Below, in pieces: positions 2,734-25,061 of a stretch of DNA of 25,061 nucleotides. Where the stretch lies: positions 3,122,237 through 3,147,297 of the forward strand of contig FN649738.1 of NCBI GenBank assembly GCA_000310025.1, in the 5' to 3' direction. This DNA is from Ectocarpus siliculosus (taxonomy: Eukaryota > Sar > Phaeophyceae > Ectocarpales > Ectocarpaceae). The translations under genes were made by a program, and so were the position numbers. Every line of letters begins with the position of its first letter. The stretch's first letter is position 1. The notes below the pieces were generated by a model. That model was not told the origin of the DNA. It worked only from the letters and a program-made list of their open reading frames with translations, and did not search any database.

Positions 2734-4560
2734 TCAGTCGGACTTAATTCGGAACACGGTTTGCGCCAAGCTGCTGCCGCACACAGACCTGGAGTCGCCC
2801 GCGCACTCCGTGGAACATAAGGCGGGACCGTGTTCGTCGTAGTCGTCCTTCCATTTGCCGCAGAAGCACCTGGTCAGAGTTGTTTCATAGGAGGAGGCGT
2901 AGGAAAACACCAGAAGCCGAAAAAGAAAGAGTTGGTTACCAGCTGTCTGTCTGTGTGGAGCTGCTTCATACATGGGAGCGCACCCGCCACTACACTTACT
3001 GTACCTTCACAAAATTTAGCGTTGCGGGCATACCCTTGCCCTGGTTTTATCCCACTTTCCTCTGCCTGCACTGTCTGCCGAGTTATTTTTCTGCGGTAGA
3101 GATGTAAGGTTTCGCTCGTTCAGAAGGATGAGGAAAGAAAGTGCCAATAGCACGAGGAGGACGCTAGCAATCGACATTGATAGCAGGCTTGATAGCAGGC
3201 TTCCTAATCTTGACGAGTGCCGAAGAGGAGGTGTCGGAGAGACGCAAGCAATCGGAAGTATCGTTGTCAAGACTATCAACACACGACACCAAGCGCGAGA
3301 GAAAAGAAAAATAAAATCAAGTGCGACTCATATGACACAAGGAAAAAACAATTCAAGTCCCCGCTCGGTAACTATTTCTCAGTGAGCTATAATAGCTATT
3401 GGTACGGGAAGCAGCGAACACGGCAATACACGGCAATAGTTATATGGGTGGTAACTGGCCATCACGGTAATATTTGGAGAGGGTCTCCATTCGTTTGATC
3501 GAAGAGATAAAGGAGAGACGCAGAGCGAGCGTCGAACCCGTGACCTACCGCGCCTGGAGGTGACTTGTAGTCGTCTCAGCTGCTCTACGGTACTTGATTT
3601 AAATTACCGTACGGTGTTGGTAATTGAATATGTGCGCGATAAGTGCCTTTGGTTGGGTGGTAACCAAACGCCACGGGATTTCGGTATTTTGCACGGCAAT
3701 TGGTTGGGTGGGAACAACAGGATATGATATCTATCCTTGGTGACGATTTGGACGTTAATGGGAGAAGGCCATTTGCTTCGTAATGGTTTGGATGGGTAGG
3801 GTAACTGCAAATTTTCTCGGTAACGTCACCAATTACCATTCGCGTGGAAATCCCGCGGGAAAAGTACCGCGAGAAAATTCCCGAGAGTAGCCTCGAGAAT
3901 TTTGAGCATCTATTATGTGCTTTCATTCACGCTCGGCTTACTTTGTGCCAGATTGAAGCCCGAAGCACCTGGCGTTCGCCGCATCACAGAAGCTCTTACA
4001 CATCTGCACAAAAAGGAAAAGAAGAAAAACAAGCGGAAAGCAGTCAATCGCCGAAAAGAGTAGAAACGGGAACGGCGAGCGCAGTAGGAAGGTATGTTCT
4101 TGTGCAGGCCGTATTCCTTGCTCGGGACCCCTAAATAGGTAGTTCGTTGCAACGAGAGGCTTTCGGCTTTTTTTGCCACCTTCTGCCTTTGTTGTGTACA
4201 TCACATTTGTATCAAAAGTGCAGAGTACCATTGATCCGCTAATCCCTTAGTTGGTTGAGACCGTCTCGTTGAAGCAACAGGAGTAGTAGCAGTAGTCTTC
4301 GACAAGTCGCCAGCACCTGCCGATGATTCCCAAGACACCTTATGTACATCACAAGGGCAAACAAGAACAGCAGCGGTAGCGGGGGTATGAAACACTAACA
4401 ACGACCCTACCTAGTCGACACGGACTGCTCACATCGTAGTCCATCTTGGAGCTCTTCGTCTCCTTGAGCGTCAGCGCTCTGTTGTTGTGGATGTCGTCCG
4501 CGAAGCAACCCATGTACTTGGAGCCCCTCGGGACGTCCTCCGGCTCGCCCTCGAACTTGA
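2734..4560 (-). CDS. Second WSC domain and C-terminus (exons 4558-4433, 4003-3942, 2869-2734)
   Basis: After the frameshift the same exon continues in a new frame: KFEGEPEDVPRGS, then KYMGCFADDIHNNRALTLKE up to ...KMDYD at donor GAT|GTGAGC. The next exon (acceptor GTGCAG|ATG) gives MCKSFCDAANARCFGLQSGT plus AA, with donor GTAAGC. The last exon (acceptor GACCAG|G) completes Lys and gives CFCGKWKDDYDEHGPALC, then ECAGDSRSVCG, ending in QTVFRIKSD and TGA at 2736-2734. All eight WSC cysteines are present plus one extra (RCF). The last intron is 1072 bp and contains a foldback and a tRNA-like relic. Phase matches at every junction support the model strongly. Confidence 0.88.
3519..3592 (-). repeat. 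tRNA-like or SINE-head relic inside the last intron of the lyase-WSC gene
   Basis: On the minus strand TAGAGCAGCTGAG resembles an RNA polymerase III A box, and about 45 bases later CGGGTTCGACGCT resembles a B box, with spacing like that of a tRNA gene. The stems do not pair well, so it is not a functional tRNA. A tRNA-derived SINE head or a decayed tRNA copy is the simplest reading. Confidence 0.25.
3618..3838. repeat. Foldback element with 9-bp inverted ends
   Basis: TGGTAATTG at 3618-3626 is the exact reverse complement of CAATTACCA at 3830-3838, bounding 221 bp inside an intron. Inside are two similar blocks, GGTTGGGTGGTAAC near 3651 and GGTTGGGTGGGAAC near 3702. The size and ends recall a MITE, but I see no clear target-site duplication. 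Confidence 0.35.
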
Positions 4561-4563
4561 GAC
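4553..4563 (-). other. One-base deletion (frameshift) between WSC 1 and WSC 2
   Basis: Inside exon 4680-4433 the frame of WSC 1 ends ...CGGRSSLSV followed by TC, while the frame of WSC 2 begins AAG TTC GAG (KFEG). The exon has 248 bases (3n+2), although both ends require phase 0, so one base is missing. The usual ending of a WSC module, ...CGG...SVY, suggests the lost base belonged to a Tyr codon (TAC read as TC). Without it, translation would run into an unrelated frame and stop before the second domain. Confidence 0.8.
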
Positions 4564-5725
4564 GGACAACGAGCTACGCCCTCCGCACGTCTCGGTGCGA
4601 CTGGTGCCGGGACAGGCCTTGTTGCAGCTCTTCGACTTGCCGTGCTTGCGGGGCCTATCCTTCGAAGCGGAGCACCAGCACTGTATGTACATGTACAAAT
4701 AAGATGGCACACAGGCAAGCCCGAAATCAGAAAGAGGGGCAGCGAGAGCGGCACCAGCTTTCGGCTTGGTTCGGCGAGGTTCGTTTTCTCATTATTTGAC
4801 CATGGCGCGGTCACCACCGACCGGTTGATTGAGGAAACCCCTTTTCTTTAGCCACAAACACCCGCGATGAAATGCGCGTTTTACGGTGCCTAGTGCGGAG
4901 ACGAAGCCTATCATTTTGTTCTTCCAGGGAGAAATAGTGCTGTGGCCGACATCATCAGCCAAGCCCGAATACTGAAGAAACGGAACAAAGAGCAGTGGGC
5001 ACGTCGCGACGGCGGTGGTGGTGTTTGCTTTTGTGCTGCGTCTTCGCTAGACACAACCGAACTCTTCGAACCACTGTTGTGGCGCTTGTATTTTTCCCGC
5101 GCTAAACCTAACCCCTTTCAGGTTTGCTGCACAGCTCATCACCTCAGTGCCGCCTTGCGTCCCGAAGTACCTGGTGCCGTCGCACAGGTCGGCGCACATC
5201 TGACAAACACAGACAACGGCCATGTCAAAGACGGTGGCGTGGGCTGGCTGACATGGGGACGAGGGGACTACATATAACAAAAGTGACGCATCGACGATTG
5301 ATTACTGTTGCTCTTCAGAGTCTTCGAAACCAGGAACGTGACAATTGCGAGCACATAGGAGCAGAAGAAAAGAGGGAGCCGCGCTTTGCGGGGCACGGTG
5401 GTGTGCCCAAACTCTTCTGGAAAAGCATGTCATAACGAGTCGTGGTCCGCGGCAAACGAAATCCCCGCACGAGATGAAGGCCGTGGGGATGGAACTGCCT
5501 ACAAGGTGGAGCAACTTTTTTGCGGGGTTGGACGGGGAATCCTTCGCCGCCATGTCCCCGTATAAATCATCCCATGACGTTTGTATGCTGCTGTAGATAC
5601 CTCATTGGTCATGTGTGCGTCGACATATTTCTTTCCCGAGAACACGTGGTCGTCATCGTCGTCCGCGAAGCAACCAACGTAGAGGTGCCCCTCGTGGTCG
5701 GGTTCAGGGCTGGTGCGAATAATCC
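4561..5725 (-). CDS. First WSC domain (exons 5725-5601, 5199-5143, 4680-4561)
   Basis: WSC domains are ~80-90 residue extracellular carbohydrate-binding modules with eight cysteines. Exon one gives the linker and YVGCFADDDDDHVFSG...MTNE. Exon two gives MCADLCDGTRYFGTQGGTE. The start of exon three gives CWCS...SCNKACPG...TCGG. Counting cysteines: GCF, MC, LC, CWC (two), SC, AC and TC make all eight. The first exon takes one base from the lyase exon (G|GG), and both internal introns are in phase 0. The run of five Asp after GCFA is unusual. In brown algae WSC modules accompany wall-modifying enzymes such as mannuronan C5-epimerases, so a wall-targeting role is plausible. Confidence 0.9.
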
Positions 5726-6196
5726 CTGCTTTGCAGTAAGAAGAAGGAGTTGTTCGAGACGGCGCACAGGGCGCAGCAAGCAACGGCAGCAAGCAACGGT
5801 AGGTGGTTGGAAGACGGCGATGATAGGATTTGTTTTCCCTGGGCAGCAGCGCTGTAGCCACGGGAAGGCCATTCGGCAAGAAGCAGGGAGCCACCGCGCA
5901 AGTTCTTCGGTGCTTCCGCGAGGCACTACCAAGTCATGCTTGTTTCAGGGATAAATCTTATTGTTGGACACCCCCAGGGTGACGTCTTGATAGCGAAGTT
6001 CCGATTTTTTCGTCGTCAGCTTCTTCTGCTTTGCAGGACATCTTCGAAGACCTGAAACAAGAGCATCCTACACTACCATTCCTTTCCTTCGGCCGCCTCG
6101 TGCTGGAATTGTTCGCGGGGTTGCGGTGCACTTCAGGGTGGTTCGATCACTATCTCTCCTCGCACCCACCTAAAAGACTACTGCATGTGTACTTAC

Positions 6197-10424: not shown

Positions 10425-11551
10425 CCTGGCGATGCCTTCGGCTGAACGAAAAACACTAGCAGAGGCAGCAGCAGTTGCACGCGTAGGTGCTTCCCAAGTG
10501 AGAAGCTTAGGAAGGAGTTACGGGTGGACTAGGGTGCGAGAGTGAAAAAAACTACAACATACCGGGGATGAAACGTTCCAATGTTCTTTTCTTCACAGTT
10601 CCGTAAAAAACAGAAGAACTTTATGGCGCATCTATTTTCAAGGGCGACCAGACCGTGGTAACCTGCAAAGCGTAGCAGCGGCAGCAGGACAGTAGAGTGG
10701 CACCAGCGGTGCTGTCGAACACAAACGCAAAAGGCGATGGACACAAAATAATGTAGGTAACTTAGGGTGTTCGTCTCGGCACCGTACAACACGGTACCCG
10801 ACGGAAAAGCGATCTCTGGGATGTACTACTTACGGTGTACTTACCTGCCGTTAGTCTGCAGCAAGCACTGGCACGCTCAGTTTTTACTGCCTTCTTCGCG
10901 CTTTGCGCTCGATTATGTTCCGGGTGCTGTCAAGTGTTCCGGCGAATTGACCTAACCAATCCGACCTTCAACGCCGCTGCGAACGACGCCACGACGCCCT
11001 TGTCGACATTGCGGTGAGACATAATATAGCAGCGGGGGCGGTGCACGTGTAACTTTATTTTGGGATCGTCCCCAGCGGCACTCACCTGAGAAGCGAATAA
11101 GGAGTTACCCAAGCTTATTTATTTTCCAGCTGGGCTATGAAGAACACAGGAGGAGAAAAGAAGAAAAGGGCGCCATGTGTACCCCCACTCTACCACGTGC
11201 AACCTTCATCTGCCGACCGCAGCACCTGCAGTAGTATCAGCCACTGGAAACGTCGTAATCGTGCGTCGGTCAGGACCTGCTGCTGAGCTGCTGACGTTGT
11301 TGAGAGGCGAGAAATGTTCAAACGTTCAACATTGCACCGAGAGAACCAAGCCAACGGTCAACAGTTCAACGCCAAATTCGGAACATTTCCGCTGCACCGA
11401 GCGGTGCATGTTCTCACATAGCTACGCCTTTCCAGTCTGGCGGACGAACGAACAGCCAATGACCTCTAAAGCATTAAGGCCCACCTCGCCACGATCAGGA
11501 GCCCTTGGGTGGTTAGCAGAGCTCAAGACGCCAAGTTGCGACTGCCTTCAC
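10425..11551. promoter_or_regulatory. Divergent intergenic region between the lyase-WSC gene and the receptor-like gene
   Basis: About 1.1 kb separates the probable ATG of the minus-strand lyase-WSC gene (10424) from the ATG of the plus-strand membrane protein gene (11552), so both promoters should lie here. No TATA box or named operator stands out. The plus-strand frame of the first exon stays open back to about 11177, but upstream of 11552 its residues look non-coding. A CAG|GTGAGT donor-like site on the minus strand near 11085 could belong to a 5' untranslated exon. Confidence 0.4.
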
Positions 11552-14500
11552 ATGATCCGGCGGACCGCGATGTCGTGGGCACTGCTGCTTCTGCTGCTGT
11601 TGCTGCCTCCTACCCCCACGGAGTCGCAAGCTGCAGGTTTACTGTGCGAGGTTTACTCCAGTCCGGGAAGAGCGGGTGGTCTCGATGCGCACCAAGACAC
11701 CGAGGCATATTTGTTCGAATGCGTGGACGGAGCCTTCCTGTCCGAGATGCGCGTCTGGGGGTGGGAGGATTGTGTCGGAGCTGTGCAGGTACGTGTATGT
11801 ACAGCATAGATGTGTAGATGCATCTCGCATGCTCATACTGCGTTTCTGATATCGACACACCCGCGGTAAGGTGTACCCCTTTGCGGGCAGTTGGCTTGCG
11901 ACCGCGGAAGGCGTCCGTGTCAGTTGGACCAGTACGGACATTAGAAGACAACTACAACAACAACAACAAGGTGCGCGTTTTGCAGACTCACTTCTCAGCA
12001 CGGGCCGGTATGTATGTCGTGTCTCTATTTTCTCCTCGGCTAATCAATGTACGGGAGGGACAGAGGGTTTGTGTGTGCGTGCACGGAGGAGGGCCGCGCG
12101 CTTTCAAAATGCTGCACGTTGTACCTCTCTTCTAAACCAAGGAAAGGAAACGCCAGGGCAGAGGTGTAGTCACCGCGGCAGCAAAGAACAACCGCGCGCA
12201 GGTAATTTCGCCCAGTATCTGGAGATGATTGATGATTGGCTTCACCATTCGATGTCAGAAGTGCCTTTAGTACGGAAAAGACCAGATAGATAGAAGCAAG
12301 ACACATGCAATAGTAAAGAAGCAGATGCAGAAATGCCGGAGCATCATCATCAGGTTGCTTGGAAAGTGGAGTATTGTCTCCTGCGGAGCACTTGCCGATC
12401 GCTGAGTGCTTTTGGGGTCGTTTTCGATTTCAAGTCAACGTCAACATCGTTTTTGTTTCATTGTTTTCATTGTTGGAAATAGTGTTTTCCTGTACCTGTA
12501 TGAATCAGAACAGCGCGGGAGGGTGGTCGAGTACGGACTGCTATTTATCAGATTCCGTCATCCCATCACGTCTTCACCGGACCACAACCTAACGACCACC
12601 TTTACCTCGAGGCGTGTACAAACTCATGTCTCCATTGAGGGTGACTGAGCAAACCTCTTAGAAGCTACATGGCGGCAATGCCAAAGAAGGGTAGGTGAAA
12701 GGGCGTGGGAACAGATGCCGAAATGGAAACAGCGTGACAAGAGCGTGGAGGCTTGCTGCTGCTTTCCCCAAAAGCACCAGGTGATTTGCCGCCTTACTAT
12801 TTATTTTGCGGTGTGAAGAAAGTTGGTTCCAACGCCATAGCTGTGCACGTCGTAAACCACCAGCATGGGTGTTCCTATGAGGAAGCTGCATGTCCTCAGA
12901 ACGCCCATCTTTCTCTGCCTACCTGCCTGTCTGACTGTCTGACTGTCTACCTTTCTTATGTTCCCCATCCCCCTTACGCGCCCCCCTCCAATCGATAAAC
13001 CTGGAAAACCATAGTGGCGGTGCACAAACGGGGAGGAGTCCCTCGTGTACCCTCGTGACCAGCCGGGTGACGCTATTAACTTGACCGCGTCTTTTAGCTT
13101 GGGGATTGCTGCTTTGCAGGGGACTTCGCGCGCCAAGTCCGGTCCGGGTCCACTGCAAGAGGTACGTTGACTAAGCCAAACCATTACAGCCGTCCAGTCT
13201 CACAAGTCCGAGTTCGCGTAGGCGTTGTTGCCTTGCAAACAATAAAAAAAAAACACTTGCCCTAGCAGCGTATTGCACTGACATCAACACCCCAACCTTT
13301 CTACCGGGCGTCTAAGCTGTTCATCGGAGGCTACGACTTCAGCGACGGCGGTTCTAGCAACTCCACCGCTTGGTTCGGCCCGTTTGGGTGAGTGCCGGGA
13401 TCGATTTTTCTTGCGTGGGTTTGGGACGAAACTCGCAACTAAGCAATGAATCCTCTCGCCCCCGCCATGTGAGAATGGCAGTTCTGCGCAGACCCGCGAT
13501 GACGCGAGGTAATTCATGATGAAAAGCTAACCATGGAAGGAAAACCAATCGCTTTCCCCTTGCGTCTTGGATATCTTGCTTTCTTCGTGATTGTCTTGAC
13601 ACAGCCATTGCCGGAACAAGAGTGGCGAGACCTTCTACACGACGGGCACCAGTTGTGGGGACGACGGGGCTCTGGCCACGGGCGCCGAAATCGTGTTTGC
13701 CGACGGGCTTGCCGGCGGTGGCGTCTTCGCCACGGCGACGAGGCTCCAGTGCGCCAAGATCACGCCAACCTGTCTCGCCCCTCACGCCGGTACGAGCAGC
13801 GTAGGCAAGCTACCGTACCGCCGGCATTCATCCGGGGTGACAGAGCAGAGAACAACAGGAAGCACCAGGCCCCCCACCCCCTCCTGTGCCCCATGTCCAG
13901 AGTGGTGTCTACCCGAAATCCGTGAGCGGGGCTGTACCACACGGCTGTTACCTTGTTGCATCCACGTGTCTCCCTCGTGTCGAGATTACCACACACCGAC
14001 TTTGGGTCCCACATATTGAACGTGATTGAATACGGGCTGTCTTCCCCACGTGCGACTTGTTATGCCCCCGCTCATGACCCGTTCCTCCTTCCAGGCTCCG
14101 AAGGTGGTAGTGCTGCGAGTAAAGCCTCTCCACCCTTGGTACAAGGCGCCGGGATCGCACTATCGTCGTCGTCGTCGTATTTGACTCGCCGGCTAGAGGA
14201 AGTGGACACGTCCGGACCTCCTTCTCCCACGTCTTCTCCCACTCCTTCTCCCACTCCTTCTCCCACCCCAGCTCCCGAGTGCATCAACCACAATGTGTGC
14301 GGAACCCCAGAGTATTGGGAGCGTCAGGACAGAATTGTCTACAGTTCGTTAATATCCGTGGCCTGTGTGCTATGCGCATGTTTCAGCGCGTGCGGATACT
14401 TGGACTGGAGGAACACGAGGGTAGAATCGCGAAACGTCATTGGACCGGACAATCTCACGGACTTCGCTCATATTAGACGAGCTTGGAGAGAAGGCGGCAA

Positions 14501-16683
14501 TGGCTGGACCAGGACTGATCGTGTCGGCTACTCGTCCGGAAATGGCTGGACGACTGATCCTGCCGGCTTCCCTGGACACACGCCAACACCAGGTACGGTA
14601 GTGAAAATTCGGTGCTTGGTTGCAGATTTCCAGGTCCTTGTAGCAGCTGTCGTTGTTCCCGGGGATACAAAGACAAGTCGTAGGGAAGTCAATGGATGAA
14701 GTGCCGTAGACGGATGGATTGTTGAAACAGCCCTTGGGAAAACCCCGGGCGAATCTGAATCCCGCGCTTTCTCCCCGCGAGAGAGTGGGTTTGCTCCAAG
14801 CTAGTGATCGAATATAGACAACTACCAAATAATAGCATGTAGCGCGCCCGAACACGCACCTAAACGTTGTCCATCATCAGGATAAAAAACGCAATGCAGT
14901 AGGTACGTCTGTCTCGACACCAGGACAGTCGCATGCCTCTTATCTTCGAGATCATTTCCGACAGAACCTATAGTGGACTTTGTGTGCTGTACGTTTTCTT
15001 GAAAACTTTCAATACTGCGTTTGGAAGAAAGAGCTGGACACCAACACGTTTGTCGCAGCCACACACCCCTCGCCTGCAGCACGCACACACAGAACTCTCT
15101 GAAGCCTCACCCAACACCCCCACTTGGTATACGGAGGCTCATACCATAGGAGTGGTTAAGTCTAGAGACCTAGAAACCAACGTGTCCCAGCTGACAGTTC
15201 TGGAGTTTCCAGGGGCTGCCCCATTTTGTGTTCCGACACTCTTGGTCTTGCTTGGGTTGTTAGATTTGTGAACTCTACTGCAAGAGAGGCTCGATTTTCT
15301 CACGATGAGGTTTGAAGATCGGCACCAAACTTTAGGAGGGGGCGAACCTAACCGCCAGCTACACCTCTGCGACCCTTACGTCGAAGTGGTGTAGGGAAAA
15401 CTCAAGAGCATGGCGGGCAAAACACATGACTTGCGTTCCCTGACAGAGGTTGGTGTTCGAACCGGCCGTGCTCTCCAGAGGTGGGGGAGGAGGCACCGGC
15501 AAGACGGCGAATAATAGTTGCAGCTTGTGTGGGCTATGAGATGTGGGGGTGGTGACAACACGGCTGCTGCATGTCTTGATTCGCACATGTAGAACCTGAA
15601 AGTATAACCAACAGAAACATTGGAACCTTGATTGGCGTCAGGATTGTATTCAGGCGCTCTTTGGTTCATCGTAAACACCCAAACATGCACTTAATGCCGC
15701 GCCCAAACCTGAAAGGGCTCGTCGTATTCCTCACGACGCTTTGTTCTGGGCGCGATGCCTTCCCAGTCGGCGAAACGGCGTACAGCACCCCGGCTTCTCG
15801 GGACACAACTACCTCCGAAATTCATGCTGCCGAAACAGCGTATCCGCACTTGTACGTTGGATGACGATAGCTGGCAGTAACCTAACCAATTTGGCGGGCA
15901 AAGTGTTGTCCATGTCGAGGAAGTTCTTGTAACGTCTGACGCGCTCTGACGGTCCCACACCACGGCTTGGTGTTATAACAGTTCATGCAACCCTTGCACA
16001 GCGTCCTAATAATCTCCGGTGGTGAGTGGGAGTATTTAGGGATAGGCTAGTGGTGTGAAACGCGAACAAACGGAGGACAAAAGAGGTTTTGACAGGAGAG
16101 CCTTGAACCAGTGAACAGCTGAGTGCTATGGTGTAGCGTTCTATTCACCAAGCCACCAGGTATTTACGTATTTACGCCCTCTCTCCCACCGCATCAGTTA
16201 CCCTCACCCAACGCGCCATCAGCCTCCCAACGTTTTTTTCAATCGTAAACGTTCCAAGCAAATATCCGTCGGCCAATTTTTGACAATAGCAGCGGGCACC
16301 CCTCTTTGCTGATCTCGCTCGTCCTCGTTCTTCACACCCACACAGCCAAACAACCGAAAACCCTCAGACTCTTTTAAGGCGGTAGAGATTTGTGCGCCCA
16401 TCCCACGCTTACACCCCCTTGCGCTTTCGCCCACCCCTATGCAGAACAAGAACAGCAACAGAGACCGACAACATCCCAATCTCGGACGCCGACATCACCG
16501 CAGCCTCAGTGTCCCCGACCTGCAGCACCGACAACGCCCGTGGCGACGGCGACAGGAGGCGGACCGACGGCGTACATAGTGGCAAGAGTGGTGGATTCGC
16601 AGTCTACCGCACAACTGCCCCGAGCGTATGGCTTCGCCGTGTCCGAAGATGAGGAGCAGAACGGCCCCGTGCATGTAGAATGA
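11552..16683 (+). CDS. Receptor-like single-pass membrane protein, six exons, family not recognised
   Basis: Exons 11552-11788, 13120-13161, 13266-13387, 13605-13789, 14095-14592 and 16445-16683 have GT..AG borders and join in phase (0, 0, 2, 1, 1) into 440 codons ending in TGA. Residues 1-27 are a signal peptide with eight consecutive leucines. The ATG at 11570 (residue 7) has a better start context and is equally possible. The ectodomain has paired cysteines and the motifs MRVWGWEDCVGAVQ, LFIGGYDFSDGGSSNSTAWF and CGDDGALATG..ATRLQC. A stalk of Ser-Pro-Thr repeats (about 236-256) precedes a membrane helix starting IVYSSLISVACVLCAC (about 276-298). The ~140-residue tail repeats NGWT and is rich in Gln, Pro and Thr, with an acidic end (SEDEEQN). 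No kinase or other catalytic domain is seen. A surface receptor or wall-contact protein is an inference from topology only. Confidence 0.85.
13120..13161 (+). CDS. 14-codon micro-exon of the receptor-like gene
   Basis: Forty-two bases lie between TTTGCAG| and |GTACGT and keep phase 0 on both sides, encoding GTSRAKSGPGPLQE. Both splice sites are strong. Because its length is a multiple of three, skipping it would keep the frame, so it could be an alternative exon. It has no cysteine and no clear fold of its own. Confidence 0.65.
13264..13269 (+). promoter_or_regulatory. Tandem TAGCAG splice acceptor (NAGNAG)
   Basis: The intron before the third exon ends CCCTAGCAG|CGT. Splicing at either AG keeps the frame and differs by one Gln codon, a standard NAGNAG arrangement. 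The upstream sequence contains AATAAAAAAAAAACACTTGC rather than a long pyrimidine tract, which weakens the certainty about which AG is used. Confidence 0.5.
14593..16444 (+). other. Last intron of the receptor-like gene (1852 bp)
   Basis: The donor is G|GTACGG and the acceptor is CCCTATGCAG|AA. I find no convincing exon or nested gene inside. A tRNA-like relic lies near 16086-16162 on the minus strand. Open frames between 15628 and 15864 lack supporting motifs. Confidence 0.6.
16086..16162 (-). repeat. tRNA-like or SINE-head relic in the last intron of the receptor-like gene
   Basis: The minus strand reads GGTGGCTTGGTGAATAGAAC (A-box-like) and, about 45 bases on, CACTGGTTCAAGGCTCTCC (B-box-like GGTTCAA). 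The expected stems pair poorly, so it is a relic rather than a working tRNA. Its layout is similar to the relic at 3519-3592, which suggests both could derive from the same class of tRNA-derived insert. Confidence 0.25.
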
Positions 16684-19600
16684 TGAAGCGGGGGCGATCA
16701 ACGTCTGGGTGCAGCTGTGGAATCCGCAAGCTTCATGCAGAAACGTGTTGGCAGCGCTGGGGACTTGTGTAGAGCGCCCCGGGCGCCGATGACGACGACA
16801 TGACGGCAGATGACAGGTGCGGCCGCAGGTTCGCACTGCCTACACGCCTCGGTTGAAATCAGCGATCATGGCACACTGACCGTATCCATTGTACCACCAT
16901 ACCGCTCACCGCTGGTGCGTTAGTGCTGCTGCCAGAGCCCGTTCAGTGAGAGTGCTCTGCCGAGGTCGATCGGGTGGCGAAAATACCACCGCATGAGATG
17001 AAAATATTTCGTTTTTCCCGTCGGTATCTCCCTTTCAATATTTTCGTGTCTCCTCTGCTTTCCCTCGCCTCTAGTTTGTTTGTTCCGCCGCCGCCGCCGT
17101 GTTTCGGGTGGATTGAATTTGCCTCGTTACGGTCTACATCCTGCTTTTCCAGCCAATCACTTCCGTTCAATACAAACGAGAAAAGGGGGAAACAGGAGTG
17201 GAAAGCTGCTGCTGCTGCTGTCGCTGCGAAAGAGAGGTGGGTACCGTAAGGGTCAACGACAACGCACGCCTGCTTGACTCATGTAGCCGCTAAATATTTT
17301 CTTCGTGTTTTTTGCGCCCTGCTCAAGTGCGACAACTCTGCCGCCACCACCGTCCGTTCCCGCCGTAAGCAGCGGCCACGTGGTCGGCATCTCCACCCAG
17401 CTCGATCAAGAAGGCCTTAGCCTAGGAGATGAAGAAAGTTCCTGCCGGTGTCAAGCATGCGCTTCTCACTCTTGGCCTCAGCGCGCCCCACTCCGGCGAC
17501 GGCGACAAGCCCGACCGGACCTACGGACGCCCACACTAATCGGTGGGCTGCTCGAAGACCGTCGCCAGGATCAGAGTCAAGAATCGCATCTGCTCTTTGT
17601 GTATGCATCGACAGAAGGGATTCATGGACGGTCATGGACTCGTCCGACGTCCAGACTTTGTCCGTGGACACGTGCACGGGGGTGCACGAAAGTCCCCGCA
17701 GAGCTGTTCATAGCCGATGGCGTGCTTGTTTCGAGGTTGGCCATCGACCTTTTCTCTGAGAGTTGAGTTACGCGCACTGTACTGCTGTGGACGGGTGTCG
17801 TCACCTTCCCTTCGGTGTCCACGGACGTGTCAGTCGACGTGTCCATGGATGGGCAAGGTCTATAGGGAAGGTCGGGACAAAGCAAGAGCCTGCCTGTGCG
17901 GGGGATTTGAAAGGCAACCTTGCTTGGCGAAGACGCGCATCTGCTGGGTGCTTTTTTTGGACCATTGCACGTTGGTGATGAGATTGCCGAGCTTGGACAA
18001 ACTCAACTGTGGACGTAGTTGTGGACATGTCACGCAAAAGGTCGTAACCTAGGGTTCCCTTCCAACTCACGCTGGCATATGTTCTTGAACGCCAGCCATT
18101 GGGATGCTTGTGGGTTTGCTGCGGCGGGGTGGAACCTAGCAGTTTCAAGTTACGTAGGATTATCGCGTGTGGATGCCCAACTTCTCACGAAGTAGAATGC
18201 CCCGGTCATGACTCTGTGGGACACATGATACTTCAGCCGATAGCTTCCACAATGTGGGTGTGTCAATTTTCCGGAATAAGCAGGGAGCGTGGGTGTAAAT
18301 AACGGAGATAGGTGCTAAATTGAGCTACCTCCTCCGCAGACAGTCTAACGTGGGACCCGTCAATCGTGTCGCTTACCGGAGGATGTCATGGGGAAATAGC
18401 CGCATTCGTGTGAGCACAGTGAAGAGATCGGAAATCATCCTTGACGGACGTTGGGGAGATTGATCCATATTCATGGTCACCTCCACATTACCCACCCACG
18501 CCAGGAAGGTACAGAGAGATTTCGAGGCATAGATGGAATAGCCAGGAAAAGACTGTAGCTGTACTGGGGCATAGGAAGTGGGCTGGACAGAATGGCGGGA
18601 AGTGATATCGATAGGATAGATAGATGGACTACTGTAGGGAAAGCATTTTTGAGCCATGTTTGGCAAAGTAAGAAGGAACGATCGGCCATCGGTGATCGGT
18701 CCTCCTGTGGGAACAATGCTCCGTCCTCTGGAAGACGCGTGGACAATGATCTAAACGCTAAGGCATGCAAAAGTACCCCCCCCCCCCTTCTAGGAACTTT
18801 GCAATTGGAACTATGCATATGTATTGTTTGGCAGACAAGGGTTTCATACGACAGGTATAATAACCGGAAGCCGACCGGTCGGCGGCGAGTCGTGTAGCTT
18901 GTCTCTTATACTTTGCATGTCGGGACTTGAAGCTGGTCTACCTTAAAGCTGGATCATCATCCGGCGAGATCAGACTCTCTTGGTCCATGCCAATCAAAGC
19001 GAACAGAGGGCGTCGTCCTTGACGGGCGTTGTTGCTGATCATTGGGGAGACGGGGCCCTTTTATAGGTCACGTCCACCCTGATTTTATGTGTCTTTGCAA
19101 GAAGAGCAGAAACAAACGTGGTGGCGGCTTGCTGTGCTCTCGATTGTCTTTCTAAAAAAACTGTGAGGTGTGCATGACACATCGAGTATTGCTGTGTAAC
19201 TGGCACGGTCGGGGTGCACATCATTCCCGGACAGTCAAGGTCAAAACCGTTTTCACGAGTCTGGCACGTCGTGACGAAATAAACCACACTACGTCGGGTT
19301 GTCTTCCAAAACAAGAGAATTCGTACCGACAACTAACGAACTTTGTTGTTGTTGTTGTGACGATTGTGCCAGATATCTCTATGAATGAATGGCGCCCTGA
19401 TTGGCCGTTTCCCGCCCATCATCGTATTGTAGTCTGGTAGTTGTTGCCGGCCCTCACGAAAATCATCCTTGCAACAATCGAGGCTCAGATTCTCGAATAA
19501 TACCACACACTAAAACCTACCGGATACTCCGGAGTTGATCTATATCATCGTAGCTTAGGGAGGGATAGTTAGGCTCCTCTGCCTCGATCAATGAAATGAA

Positions 19601-20622: not shown

Positions 20623-20746
20623 CAACACCACACCACACCTAGCCTCTCACAGGACACCTTCAAGCCCGTGGTCGTGATCGTCTTCCACACCACACCACAC
20701 CAAGCCTATCACAGGACACCTTCAAGCCCGTGATCGTGATCGTCTC
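20623..20746 (+). repeat. 62-bp tandem duplication just upstream of the ferric reductase-like start codon
   Basis: The unit at 20623-20684 is repeated at 20685-20746 with few differences. Both contain a CACCACACCACACC tract, AGCCT(C/A)TCACAGGACACC, and TTCAAGCCCGTG(G/A)TCGTG then ATCGTCT. The second copy ends eight bases before the ATG at 20755, so the repeat should fall in the core promoter or 5' untranslated region. Near-identity suggests a recent event. Confidence 0.85.
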
Positions 20747-20754
20747 GCCCCACC

Positions 20755-23700
20755 ATGGGAGGAGGCAAGATCGCGGCTGCCCTGGCGGGCACCAGGACGT
20801 TCTCCTACCTCCTGCTGGGGTACGCCCTCTTCCACCTCGCCATGCATTTCGGGAAGTGGTACGGGGAGCACTTCGAGGACACGGACGACGGCCTGCAGCA
20901 CCTGGAGTTCGTGATGCAAGGCGAGGGCACCGACGACGAGCTCAAGATCCGCACCTCCAGGGGCCAGCTGTTCCTGTTCCTGGCCTCGCCGATCATCCTT
21001 GCGGCGGCGCTGGGCGGCGTGTACGAAGCGCTGTGGCTGTCACGAGAGGCCAAAGCGGGCGACGCCGCTGAAGCATCCAAGGCAGGCGGCTTCCTCGCCA
21101 CCATACACAGCATCATGCACTGCCAGTTCAGGCCTCTGGGCTCGTCGTACTTCCCGTGAGTGCCTTTTGCAGAGTGAGAGTAGTGGTGGCAGCAGGGGCG
21201 CAAAAGCTGAGCGTGCGATCCAAACCTGCTGTGCCACAAACCTGCGTTTTTTTCTTGAGTTTTGCATGTGCGCGAAATTGCGCGAAAACCTTTTTTTTTT
21301 CAGGTTTGTTTGAGGATATCTCCTCTATTTTCAAGTGATTGAAAATTGCAGGTTTGGTGACGAGCGATCTTCTCTGTGGGTGCGCATGCGTAAGCCGGCA
21401 TACGGAGAAGAATTTAAATAACAAATTGTTGTATCGAGACCAGCTGGAACAAACCCACTGATGATGCGAGTGTTGAATAAGCCCCCCTCGACACAGCGAG
21501 AGGTCGGCAGCGGAATCTCCGGGGGGGATTGCCGGCCCTCTAGCACACGCGCGGCCAATCTTTCCCCCCTATCGGCTAGGTATAAGTAATACCACCGCCA
21601 TGCGTGGCAGGTAGGTGCATTTGCACCCACACAAGCGTTGAACCACACCGGCACTTGCGTGGCGGGGAGACACGTCGACAGGCGCATGATGTATGACCGA
21701 CGAACCCCGCGATTCCCCGTCCTAGGTGGCTGACGGTAGGAGAGGCCGCCGCCATGTTCCTGTGGATCTGCGTCATGGTATCGGAACTTACGCAAGGTGT
21801 GTGTAGTGCGTGTCCTTGACCTGCACTTTTTTCGGGGTAAAAAGTAAAGAGCGGTATTCACACATACATGTGATGTTCCTTAACTTTTTAGACTGCCCTT
21901 TTAGGCAAACTATCGCACACAACGCTCCTGCTCTCTAGAAGGACTCAGGTTTTCCCAGGCGGGCAGGGCAAAAGGGTATGTATGTATGCGTCCCCCAGTT
22001 ACATTCGGCGTAAGCAAGCATGAGAAAGTACAGGAAAACACACACCATACATGCATCCAAGGGGAATTTTTTCCCTCAGGGTCGTGTAAAGTTGTTGTGT
22101 TGCAATCAATCTCGTTCTCTTCCCTCTGGCCAGTGTAATGGAGAGCAAGTGCAGTGTATGAGCGTTGGCTGTATATTACTTTATTTGAGAGAGCTACATG
22201 TCTACTCTTCTTGTCTTCCTGTGGGAAATATGCCGTCGGTATTGAAGTAGTAGCAGTTGAAGGCGGGATAGGATGCCAGTCCCATCCTCGCGCTCCAGAG
22301 CGGATCTGATCAATACTATTTGTACACAGAGCAATGAAATAACAACTCTGCTCGAAGTAAAGCGGCGAACATGCTCCCTCCCCAGTTTCTCCACAACGCA
22401 GGACGTTAGAAGCTTGATTTCTGCCCGCCGTAAATGATACCCTTCTCGACATTTCACCGTCTCCTGTGCAACGTCAGCACCCACTTCAAAACATAATTTC
22501 TCATATATATGCATATATGGCATACAATAGATAAGTGTCTGCAGTAAGGTCTTACCTCTACCCCCGGTTTCTGTGCCGCCTCGTAGATGTCATGTACGAT
22601 CTTTTAGCGGCGTCAAGATCCTCAGTCTCTCCCCCCCAATTGCCACAACACGACTCTATTACTGGTCCATCGCAAGCCATGTCGACAATATCCATCCCCT
22701 CAACATCAGTTGCAACAGCCCCGCCCCCCCCTCCCCCCTTCATTTATTCTTCTTTCTCTTAGAAGGGAACTACGTGCGTCGTCGGAATTGCGCCAGCACG
22801 CCGTTTTTTCTCCTTCAAGAACAGCCGCCCAAAAAAGATGTGCTGGAAGTATTTCGGAAGCAACAGCATCTTGTAGACTATGCATATGCCCCCACACCCA
22901 TTCGGACCACAGGAAGGAGCGTGTTGCTTTACAACTTCTCAGATGCGTTCGTTCATGCTGGTCACACACACACACATTGAACCACAACGCAAATGCACAC
23001 ACGACAGCCATCACCGTCGGACCCCGGTTTTTCAACTCAAACGAGAGTTTGCCTCCCCATTAGTTTGGTTGGTTGTCTGCGCCTCGCCACGTCACGCGCG
23101 CCCCCCCCCCGCCCCCGCCCCCCCCCGTTCGTTCGGCATCATCGCGATCAGGTGTTTTGGCACGCGAACACGGCGAGAGCTACGTGGTTTGCGAGGACGA
23201 CCCGACAGACTGGTGCAGCTCGCGAGATGGCACGCCTGGGGGACCGACGCCCAACCAATGGATGTACGGCCCCGCCCGATGACCCTAAAAAAAATGCAAT
23301 AAATGACACCGATTACATCTCGACCGACGAGAGATCCAGAATATATTAGCAATGAATCCATGTAAACGTCAGCGGAAGCGCGCCTTTGCATCGGTTACAG
23401 TACCGTGTTGTGTGACTCTTGAAGAGCGTGTATCTCGGAATCATCCCCATGAGTTATCCATAGAAATCCAGACGAGCTTCCCCCGGACATTCACTCCCTA
23501 TCCAACGGCCCTCAAGTAGACAGCACAAGGTGGTGGTTGGCGCAACGACAGGAGCGTGACGACAAAGCGGAGGTCGAGTTTTTTCAGTCCACGGCAGCCC
23601 TATCGCCCGACTCCCGACAAGCTCACCTCTGTCCCACCACTTGAATTCAGATAAAGCCTGTAGTTGATTTTTGAAGACATGAGCGTGTGCGCCTATGGGA

Positions 23701-24557
23701 ATCCTCGTGTGGACGAGAAGCATAGTGTAGACTTCTTCTCATGGACAGCTCACCCTTCTCCAAAAGAATTACAAATTACCATATTTTTCGTTTCTCTTTT
23801 CCGATTAACTCTGCTTGCTCTATCTGTGGTCCCACTTCTTGCGCCGTCTTGTCGAGGCGTGAAGAACGTCTAGCAGCGCTTAGCCCTCTCTTGTGTTGGC
23901 TTCCGGTTGTGCAGGAACGAACGACTGTCCCCAACACATGCCGTGGCCCTTTTCCCGGTGCTCTCGGCATGCGTCTGTCGTCCGTCGCAAACCTAAATGT
24001 TCTGAAGCCCTGCGGCCAAGCCTGCAACCGCAGCAACCCCGGCTCCATACGTAAAATAATGGCACAAACAAGTCATAAGCACACGTCGAACGCACCGCTG
24101 TTAACAAACCCCCCCGCCTGTCTCTTCGCACGCGAGCAGGCTGTTCAGGGTGGCCACCTACTTCGGCTACATCTGCTCCTCGCACTTCGCGGTCATCCTC
24201 GTCCCCGTGGCCCGCGACAGCAAGATCTGGTCGTCCCTCGGCGTCCCCTACGAGCGGGCCGTGCTCTACCACACCTTCGCCGGCCACCTCGCCTTCACCA
24301 CCATGGCGGTTCACGCCTTCCTCTTCGTCGTCTACTGGGTGTGGTACGACGGGTGGGCGCACGCCATCCGCGAGTCGATCCACGCCCCGGCGGAGAAGCA
24401 CCACCACGGGCTCGACATCCCCATGGGGTGGATGGCCCTGCTGTGCGGGCTGCCGATGTGGATCACGTCGATCAACTTCGTTCGGAGGCGCTACTACAGC
24501 CTCTTCAAGCTCGCGCACTTCCTGTTCATCGGCGTTTTCGTCTTCGGCGCCATGCAC
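20755..24557 (+). CDS. Ferric reductase/NADPH oxidase-type transmembrane oxidoreductase, N-terminal two exons (gene continues past the window)
   Basis: Exon one, 20755-21155 (donor CC|GTGAGT), and exon two, 24140-24557 (acceptor GCGAGCAG|G, donor CAC|GTGAGA), join in phase into 273 residues. Membrane segments are visible at about 17-33, 72-95, 145-158, 183-200, 228-245 and 256-273. The heme-binding signatures of the ferric reductase domain are both present: H178-X13-H192 (YHTFAGHLAFTTMAVH) and H260-X12-H273 (AHFLFIGVFVFGAMH). Such proteins pass electrons from cytosolic NAD(P)H through FAD and two hemes to iron, copper or oxygen outside the cell. The FAD and NAD(P)H domains must lie in exons beyond the right edge, so metal reductase and superoxide-producing oxidase cannot be told apart. 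Codons are strongly G/C-ending, unlike the receptor-like gene, which suggests high expression. Confidence 0.9.
21156..24139 (+). other. First intron of the ferric reductase-like gene (2984 bp)
   Basis: A long intron bounded by CC|GTGAGT and GAGCAG|G. It holds simple sequence (CA repeats near 22968, C runs near 22720 and 23100-23126, an AT-rich ATATATGCATATAT palindrome near 22505) and one stretch at 23150-23281 that looks coding and is followed by AATAAA. Nothing else is supported. Confidence 0.7.
23150..23281 (+). CDS. Possible nested terminal exon or gene fragment within the reductase intron
   Basis: After a possible acceptor (GCGATCAG|GTG) a frame reads VLAREHGESYVVCEDDPTDW, then CSSRDGTPGGPTPNQWMYGP, then AR and TGA. 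The residue mix (two Cys, three Trp/Tyr-rich patches, no low complexity) is unusually protein-like for an intron. AATAAA occurs at about 23299-23304, shortly after the stop. Against it: the other two plus frames are also open here because the region is GC-rich, and I do not recognise the peptide. It could be the last exon of a nested gene or a fragment of a repeat. Confidence 0.25.
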
Positions 24558-25061
24558 GTGAGACTTTTTTTTTTTTTTTCTCGACGACCGCTTATCATCA
24601 TATCACGAAGAATGATGTCAGTTGCAGCCACCACGTGTTTCGGAAGAGTAGCAATCTGCTCTACAGCCGGTTTCCCTTTCCCTCCACTCACTGAAAAGAC
24701 TTCCACCACGTCCCTTTCGACTTATGGGGTTATATCTCGAACGGGTATTATAGTCTTTCTGTGAGATGATGTTTTAATCTTCAAAAAAGAAATCTGCTCT
24801 GAACAAAGTCACACCACCTTTACATCCATCCGCGCACGGTGTGGTGCTCCATCTCCCCCCGGAAGACCGTTCAGTATGCTGTCCACGGACTAATAGTCGC
24901 CCACCCGCGGTTACCTACGTATGACGCTGGCAACTCCTCCTGGTTTCGTCTCATTCTCCCCCCCCCCCCCCCGGGGGGAAATCTGGGCCCCCGGGTCCTT
25001 GGGTGGTGGTTTGGGTTCCCGGGGGTCCGGAAAACGCTCTAATACCCCGGCGGGGTGAACG
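24558..25061. other. Start of the second reductase intron and low-quality contig end
   Basis: The intron begins GTGAGACTT followed by 14 T. No further exon is visible. From about 24957 to the end the sequence becomes runs of C and G (16 C, then 6 G, then CCCGGG-type strings), like the G-rich first 70 bases of the window, and is probably unreliable base calling at a contig end. Confidence 0.6.

Follow-up and report, generated by a model that had tools for sequence, protein, structure and literature searches.

A candidate single-pass surface protein with an insecure gene model in the brown alga Ectocarpus siliculosus

The region at 11552–16683 on the forward (+) strand of a 25,061-nucleotide stretch of Ectocarpus siliculosus DNA (contig FN649738.1; the whole stretch is referred to as the window) raises the question of whether it encodes a membrane protein of the cell surface and, if so, of what kind. 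Our preferred reading, to which we give a probability of about 40%, is that a real multi-exon eukaryotic gene lies on the + strand here and encodes a type I single-pass surface protein, likely a passive sensor or an adhesion protein. The original prediction described six exons that join in phase into an unrecognised receptor-like membrane protein with a complete gene model. The join itself is confirmed, as the six exons give 1,272 nt in phase and a directly readable open frame of 423 residues without an internal stop, closed by a stop codon at 16681–16683. All five introns have GT-AG borders, and all five donors read GTACG or GTRAG, a set that was picked after the model had been seen. Exon 1 (11552–11788, +) supplies a leucine-rich putative signal peptide and the start of the extracellular head (residues 28–79), and runs in frame to a GT donor. 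The proposed exon 2 (13120–13161, +; 14 codons in 42 nt, phase 0/0) is in phase, optional and doubtful. Exon 3 (13317–13387, +) is in phase behind an acceptor ending in AAG and carries GGYDFSDGGSSNSTA (13326–13370), while exon 4 (13605–13789, +), the best-supported exon, carries CGDDGALATGAEIV (13654–13695), so that both motifs quoted in the original prediction are present in the translation. Exon 5 (14095–14592, +) is the longest of the chain, with a probability of about 0.002 of being open at the stop frequency of the introns, and holds a linker, a Ser/Pro/Thr stalk, a CxxxxxC motif, the membrane helix and the start of the tail. The proposed exon 6 (16445–16683, +) adds the last 79 codons of the tail, in phase and behind a good pyrimidine tract, in a frame that is doubtful.

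The protein begins with a hydrophobic run with leucines at residues 11–18, which forms a putative signal peptide (residues 1 to ~27, at 11552 to ~11632, +), and judging from the −3/−1 rule we take the cleavage site to lie after SQA. Seven cysteines were counted on the translation in the head and two in the juxtamembrane part. The Ser/Pro/Thr stalk is seen directly at 14218–14276 (+), where Tandem Repeats Finder places a 12-bp tandem repeat (14218–14266; direct repeats D1). A single membrane helix (residues 259–281; 14334–14402, +) is equally plain in the translation, with a Kyte-Doolittle value of 2.13 over residues 259–277, the maximum of the protein, and about 142 residues lie C-terminal to it. 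Translation and hydropathy agree with the predicted layout of leader, ectodomain, Ser/Pro/Thr stalk, helix and tail of ~140 residues. The description as receptor-like refers to this layout only.

To what extent might such a chain and such a layout arise by chance? The nulls were dinucleotide-preserving shuffles of 11501–16700 and eight further region-strands of 5.2 kb from the window; these partly overlap one another and may harbour real genes. Chains were assembled from GTACG or GTRAG donors, the same set chosen with the model in view, and pyrimidine-filtered acceptors. The longest chains reached up to 625 residues in the real region and 399 residues on its opposite strand, and chains of at least 423 residues were obtained in 5 of 40 shuffles and in 6 of the 8 other region-strands. 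By itself, an in-phase join does not argue strongly against chance; the layout is the better evidence. For the layout, a chain of at least 300 residues had to combine an N-terminal hydrophobic run with an internal helix, under hydropathy limits set after the model had been seen; the longest chain per ATG was scored, which is not necessarily the predicted chain. The leader-plus-helix layout occurred once in the real region and in none of 60 shuffles, among which 25 had a chain of at least 300 residues and 3 had the N-terminal run.

As a null for the coding statistics, 4,000 pieces were drawn at random from local DNA that was assumed to be non-coding. When exons 1, 3 and 4 are pooled in the claimed frame they have directly measurable coding-like values, with an excess of G+C at third codon positions (GC3) of 0.165 and a share of purine-any base-pyrimidine codons (RNY score) of 0.354, where the 99% levels of the null are 0.119 and 0.311. 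This signal comes mainly from exon 4, which in frame has a GC3 excess of 0.197 and an RNY score of 0.443 (both without a null of its own length) and a GC3 of 0.80. The RNY score of exon 5 (0.309) is marginally above its 99% null value of 0.307, and the G+C content of the exons is 0.57–0.69 versus 0.48–0.59 for the introns.

The frame over six exons, the presence of leader and helix, the pooled coding measures, the absence of the layout from the shuffles, the exon G+C and the lack of a kinase or other catalytic family among the Pfam matches of the full protein all argue for the surface-protein reading. Several results weigh against it, the frequency of long chance chains among them. The leader-plus-helix layout recurs in 2 of the 8 other region-strands, the leucine run is encoded by CTG-rich DNA of low complexity (direct-repeat family D2), and the stalk is likewise placed on a low-complexity tandem repeat. 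Exon 1 alone falls within the null (GC3 excess 0.108 and RNY 0.228; 95% null values 0.133 and 0.316), and for exon 5 only the RNY measure clears the null, the GC3 excess being −0.027. Over the whole frame GC3 is 0.63, versus 0.96 for a ferric reductase exon elsewhere in the window. In the claimed frame exon 6 has an RNY score of 0.101, below the null median of 0.228, and the same DNA scores 0.423 in another frame. Alternatively, there may be no such protein, and the chain may consist of one or two true exons surrounded by open stretches that join by chance or by what is left of a decaying gene. The ease with which chains of this length arise, the low complexity of both leader and stalk, exon 1 by itself and the weak statistics of exon 6 all fit this explanation, which is however at odds with pooled exons above 99% of the null on two measures, with a layout seen in 0 of 60 shuffles and with five of five donors of the GTACG or GTRAG type, allowing for the choice of that set after viewing. 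We consider it unlikely that the protein does not exist.

Whether the gene is built as predicted is less certain. Skipping of exon 2 keeps the frame, other open starts for exon 2 exist, and exon 3 can start in phase at 13266, 13269 or 13317. With donors from the same five, 2,304 in-phase models are obtained, of which 1,920 keep the frame of the helix. The exon 4 motif is found in all 1,920 of these, with a single start for exon 4 throughout, and the proposed stop is reached in 240. Retention of intron 5 in the exon-2-skipped model yields a product of 365 residues. The first half of exon 6 (16445–16564) has an RNY score of 0.026 in the claimed frame versus 0.538 in the other frame; in the second half the scores are 0.179 and 0.282, and GC3 is 0.62 in the claimed frame versus 0.44 in the other. 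In the non-claimed frame of 16445–16564 (+), G+C rises by codon position (0.49, 0.67 and 0.77). The better-scoring frame at this position is possibly the true frame of exon 6, or an exon of something else. Four acceptors, 16456 and 16462 just behind 16445, and 16504 and 16510 further on, would all enter it. Out of 12 positions, pyrimidines fill 9 at 16445, 2 at 16456, 3 at 16462, 7 at 16504 and 8 at 16510. We treat the contrast in exon 6 as a warning and not as a disproof, because in our judgement RNY is blunt in Ser/Pro/Thr-rich stretches.

These findings bear on the alternative that the gene is real but built otherwise, without exon 2, with exon 3 starting upstream, and with exon 6 reframed, or with read-through of intron 5 in its place. 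The frame that survives exon 2 skipping, the three exon 3 starts, the small share of models that reach the proposed stop, the 365-residue read-through form and the preference of the first half of exon 6 for a frame that acceptors 16504 and 16510 would enter are all consistent with it. The better pyrimidine tract of acceptor 16445 compared with 16456 and 16462, the higher GC3 of the proposed frame in the second half of exon 6 and the unreliability of RNY in sequence of this composition speak for the proposed structure instead. We rate the chances of a differently built gene at just short of even. Its product would remain a single-pass surface protein, differing in a head loop and in the tail, so it is compatible with the surface-protein reading and competes only with the exact model of the original prediction. 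The gene model is not established as complete, because chains are common by chance, exon 2 can be skipped and exons 3 and 6 are ambiguous. Of the original interpretation the surface layout and, within the libraries searched, the unnamed domain are retained and the complete gene model is not, with exon 2 optional, three possible starts for exon 3 and a doubtful frame for exon 6. The core of exons 3, 4 and 5, together with exon 1 by virtue of the layout, has firmer support than exons 2 and 6, and the tail and the second exon are unsuitable for use ahead of transcript evidence.

To place the head and the tail among known proteins, relatives were sought in prokaryotic and viral contigs, phage records, protein-family libraries and PDB sequences; the contig and phage scans start at exact short peptides and detect close relatives only. 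With the full protein and with pieces of the head, Pfam gave only low-complexity or sub-threshold matches. No kinase or other catalytic family was reported for the full protein at E values up to 10, and no leucine-rich repeat (LRR) or integrin family was reported. Neither the full protein nor the head pieces gave a WSC match in Pfam at E values up to 10, a search in which the HMMER filters can lose weak matches; the same library does report WSC fragments elsewhere in the window. Matches of the low-complexity tail to PARP (E 0.09 and 0.015), and matches to DUF6264 (E 2.4) and an At5g54830-like family (E 0.14), were below the curated cut-offs and were dismissed. The head alone had no family in NCBIfam or PHROGs, and the best matches among PDB sequences (E 0.24, next 0.64) were both dismissed. 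No relative of the head was confirmed among 28 pattern matches in viral contigs and 34 in prokaryotic contigs, its one match in phage records (E 10) was taken as chance, and no relative of the tail was confirmed in viral contigs. A protein search of the 25-kb window returned the protein's own exons and two chance-level matches (E 3.9 and 8), and therefore no second copy is present in the window. In open-licence papers, searched with general terms and not by sequence, no description was recognised as this protein. A fold predicted for the 61 residues of exon 4 by themselves, with no alignment supplied, had a mean predicted local distance difference test score of 45.2 and is uninformative. Within Pfam, NCBIfam, PHROGs and PDB sequences the ectodomain is indeed without a nameable domain, as originally proposed. 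The absence of a match in these sets carries little weight for brown algae or oomycetes and does not make the protein an orphan in the strict sense.

The head could instead be a very divergent β-prism carbohydrate-binding domain of the VMO-I or jacalin type, making the protein a membrane-anchored lectin. By eye, a C-G-A-x-G pattern and a closing TRLQC resemble VMO-I repeats, and a W-x-GPFG stretch resembles jacalins; these likenesses were then set against 1VMO and 1JAC. Ten alignment tests with 1,000 shuffles each gave z values between −1.1 and 1.63, the highest being against single 1VMO repeats, the three conserved internal repeats that mark VMO-I not being recovered in the head, and the alignment to 1JAC reached a z value of 0.27 at best. 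A small hidden Markov model built from the three 1VMO repeats missed the head, yet reported 225 of the 1,000 sequences in a test set that comprised 998 shuffles plus the head in two forms, and Pfam reported neither the VMO-I nor the jacalin family. With these alignment and model tests against PDB sequences having failed, we rejected the resemblance and regard a lectin of this type as most improbable. A head with a novel extracellular fold, belonging to a sensor family of one algal lineage with paralogues that differ in their tails and with recognition of wall polysaccharide, also appears very unlikely. The gene itself is probably real, and pending transcripts and relatives the product is best regarded as an orphan surface protein of an ordinary kind.

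How would such a protein work? Under the surface-protein reading, the leader would route the protein to the secretory pathway and the single helix would span the plasma membrane, placing the head of ~150 residues outside, on a Ser/Pro/Thr stalk that is probably O-glycosylated and would act as a spacer. The tail would lie inside and is probably disordered. The head may touch a wall polysaccharide or a neighbouring surface, and the tail could relay this contact; since no enzyme domain is recognised in the tail, any signal would pass via bound cytosolic proteins. Sensors of the Wsc/Mid2 type have a leader, a cysteine-containing head, a Ser/Thr-rich stalk, one helix and a kinase-free tail, and they signal wall stress by way of a Rho GTPase. 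Yeast Wsc1-3 and Mid2/Mtl2 are presented as transmembrane wall-stress sensors in an excerpt of PMC8307928. The present protein shares a leader, a Ser/Thr-rich stalk and one helix with them, a likeness of layout only, judged by hydropathy and repeat content, that is common to many unrelated proteins. In contrast to Wsc proteins, its head has no WSC match and its stalk is a short, proline-rich repeat, and no shared sequence was shown. From layout alone, a wall-contact sensor or adhesion protein is probably the best fit, with Wsc/Mid2 as the nearest layout; the protein is not assigned to these sensors because no WSC domain was found. The same excerpt of PMC8307928 describes brown algal LRR receptor kinases and α-integrin-like proteins as membrane-localised and as proteins that might contact the wall. 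The protein resembles these as a predicted membrane protein with possible wall contact and differs from them in having no LRR, kinase or integrin family by Pfam.

Elsewhere in the window, a ferric reductase exon (Ferric_reduct, PF01794, E 2.1e-16) lies at 24105–24764 (+), with the domain at ~24165–24548 and a GC3 of 0.96 taken over the first 150 codons; it has no relative in viral contigs and no PDB sequence match at E 0.01. By eye, 20755–21159 (+), which has no family match, may be its N-terminal exon. A tandem duplication at 20625–20745 (period 62 bp, 94% matching) is located just upstream of this possible start, and another is found at 530–661 (68 bp, 93%). An open frame of 403 residues at 846–2057 (−) has no Pfam match and no viral-contig relative; from inspection by eye we presume a resemblance to the end of a reverse transcriptase of the long interspersed nuclear element type, with a zinc-finger-like C terminus. 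No Rfam family reached its gathering score in the window, and no transfer RNA was detected there. Two WSC fragments (putative carbohydrate-binding), at 5499–5933 (−; profile positions 1–44, E 0.073) and 4474–4788 (−; positions 48–82, E 0.00011), both below the curated Pfam score, are ordered as exons of one minus-strand gene would be, and a further WSC-like start, unreported by Pfam, was noted by eye at 4349–4573 (−). WSC domains occur in many brown algal PR-1 proteins, according to an excerpt of PMC12879055.

In brown algae, orphans make up as much as 18% of generation-biased genes in the part of PMC6374913 drawn on here, where orphan status is defined against other stramenopile proteomes. 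An unrecognised protein is unsurprising given this proportion, and the present one is similar to such genes in having no recognisable relatives, here within non-eukaryotic sets, family libraries and PDB sequences. If real and expressed, it would be one more candidate surface protein on a short list, in a lineage in which, by the excerpted account of PMC8307928, the sensing of wall and contact is uncharacterised.

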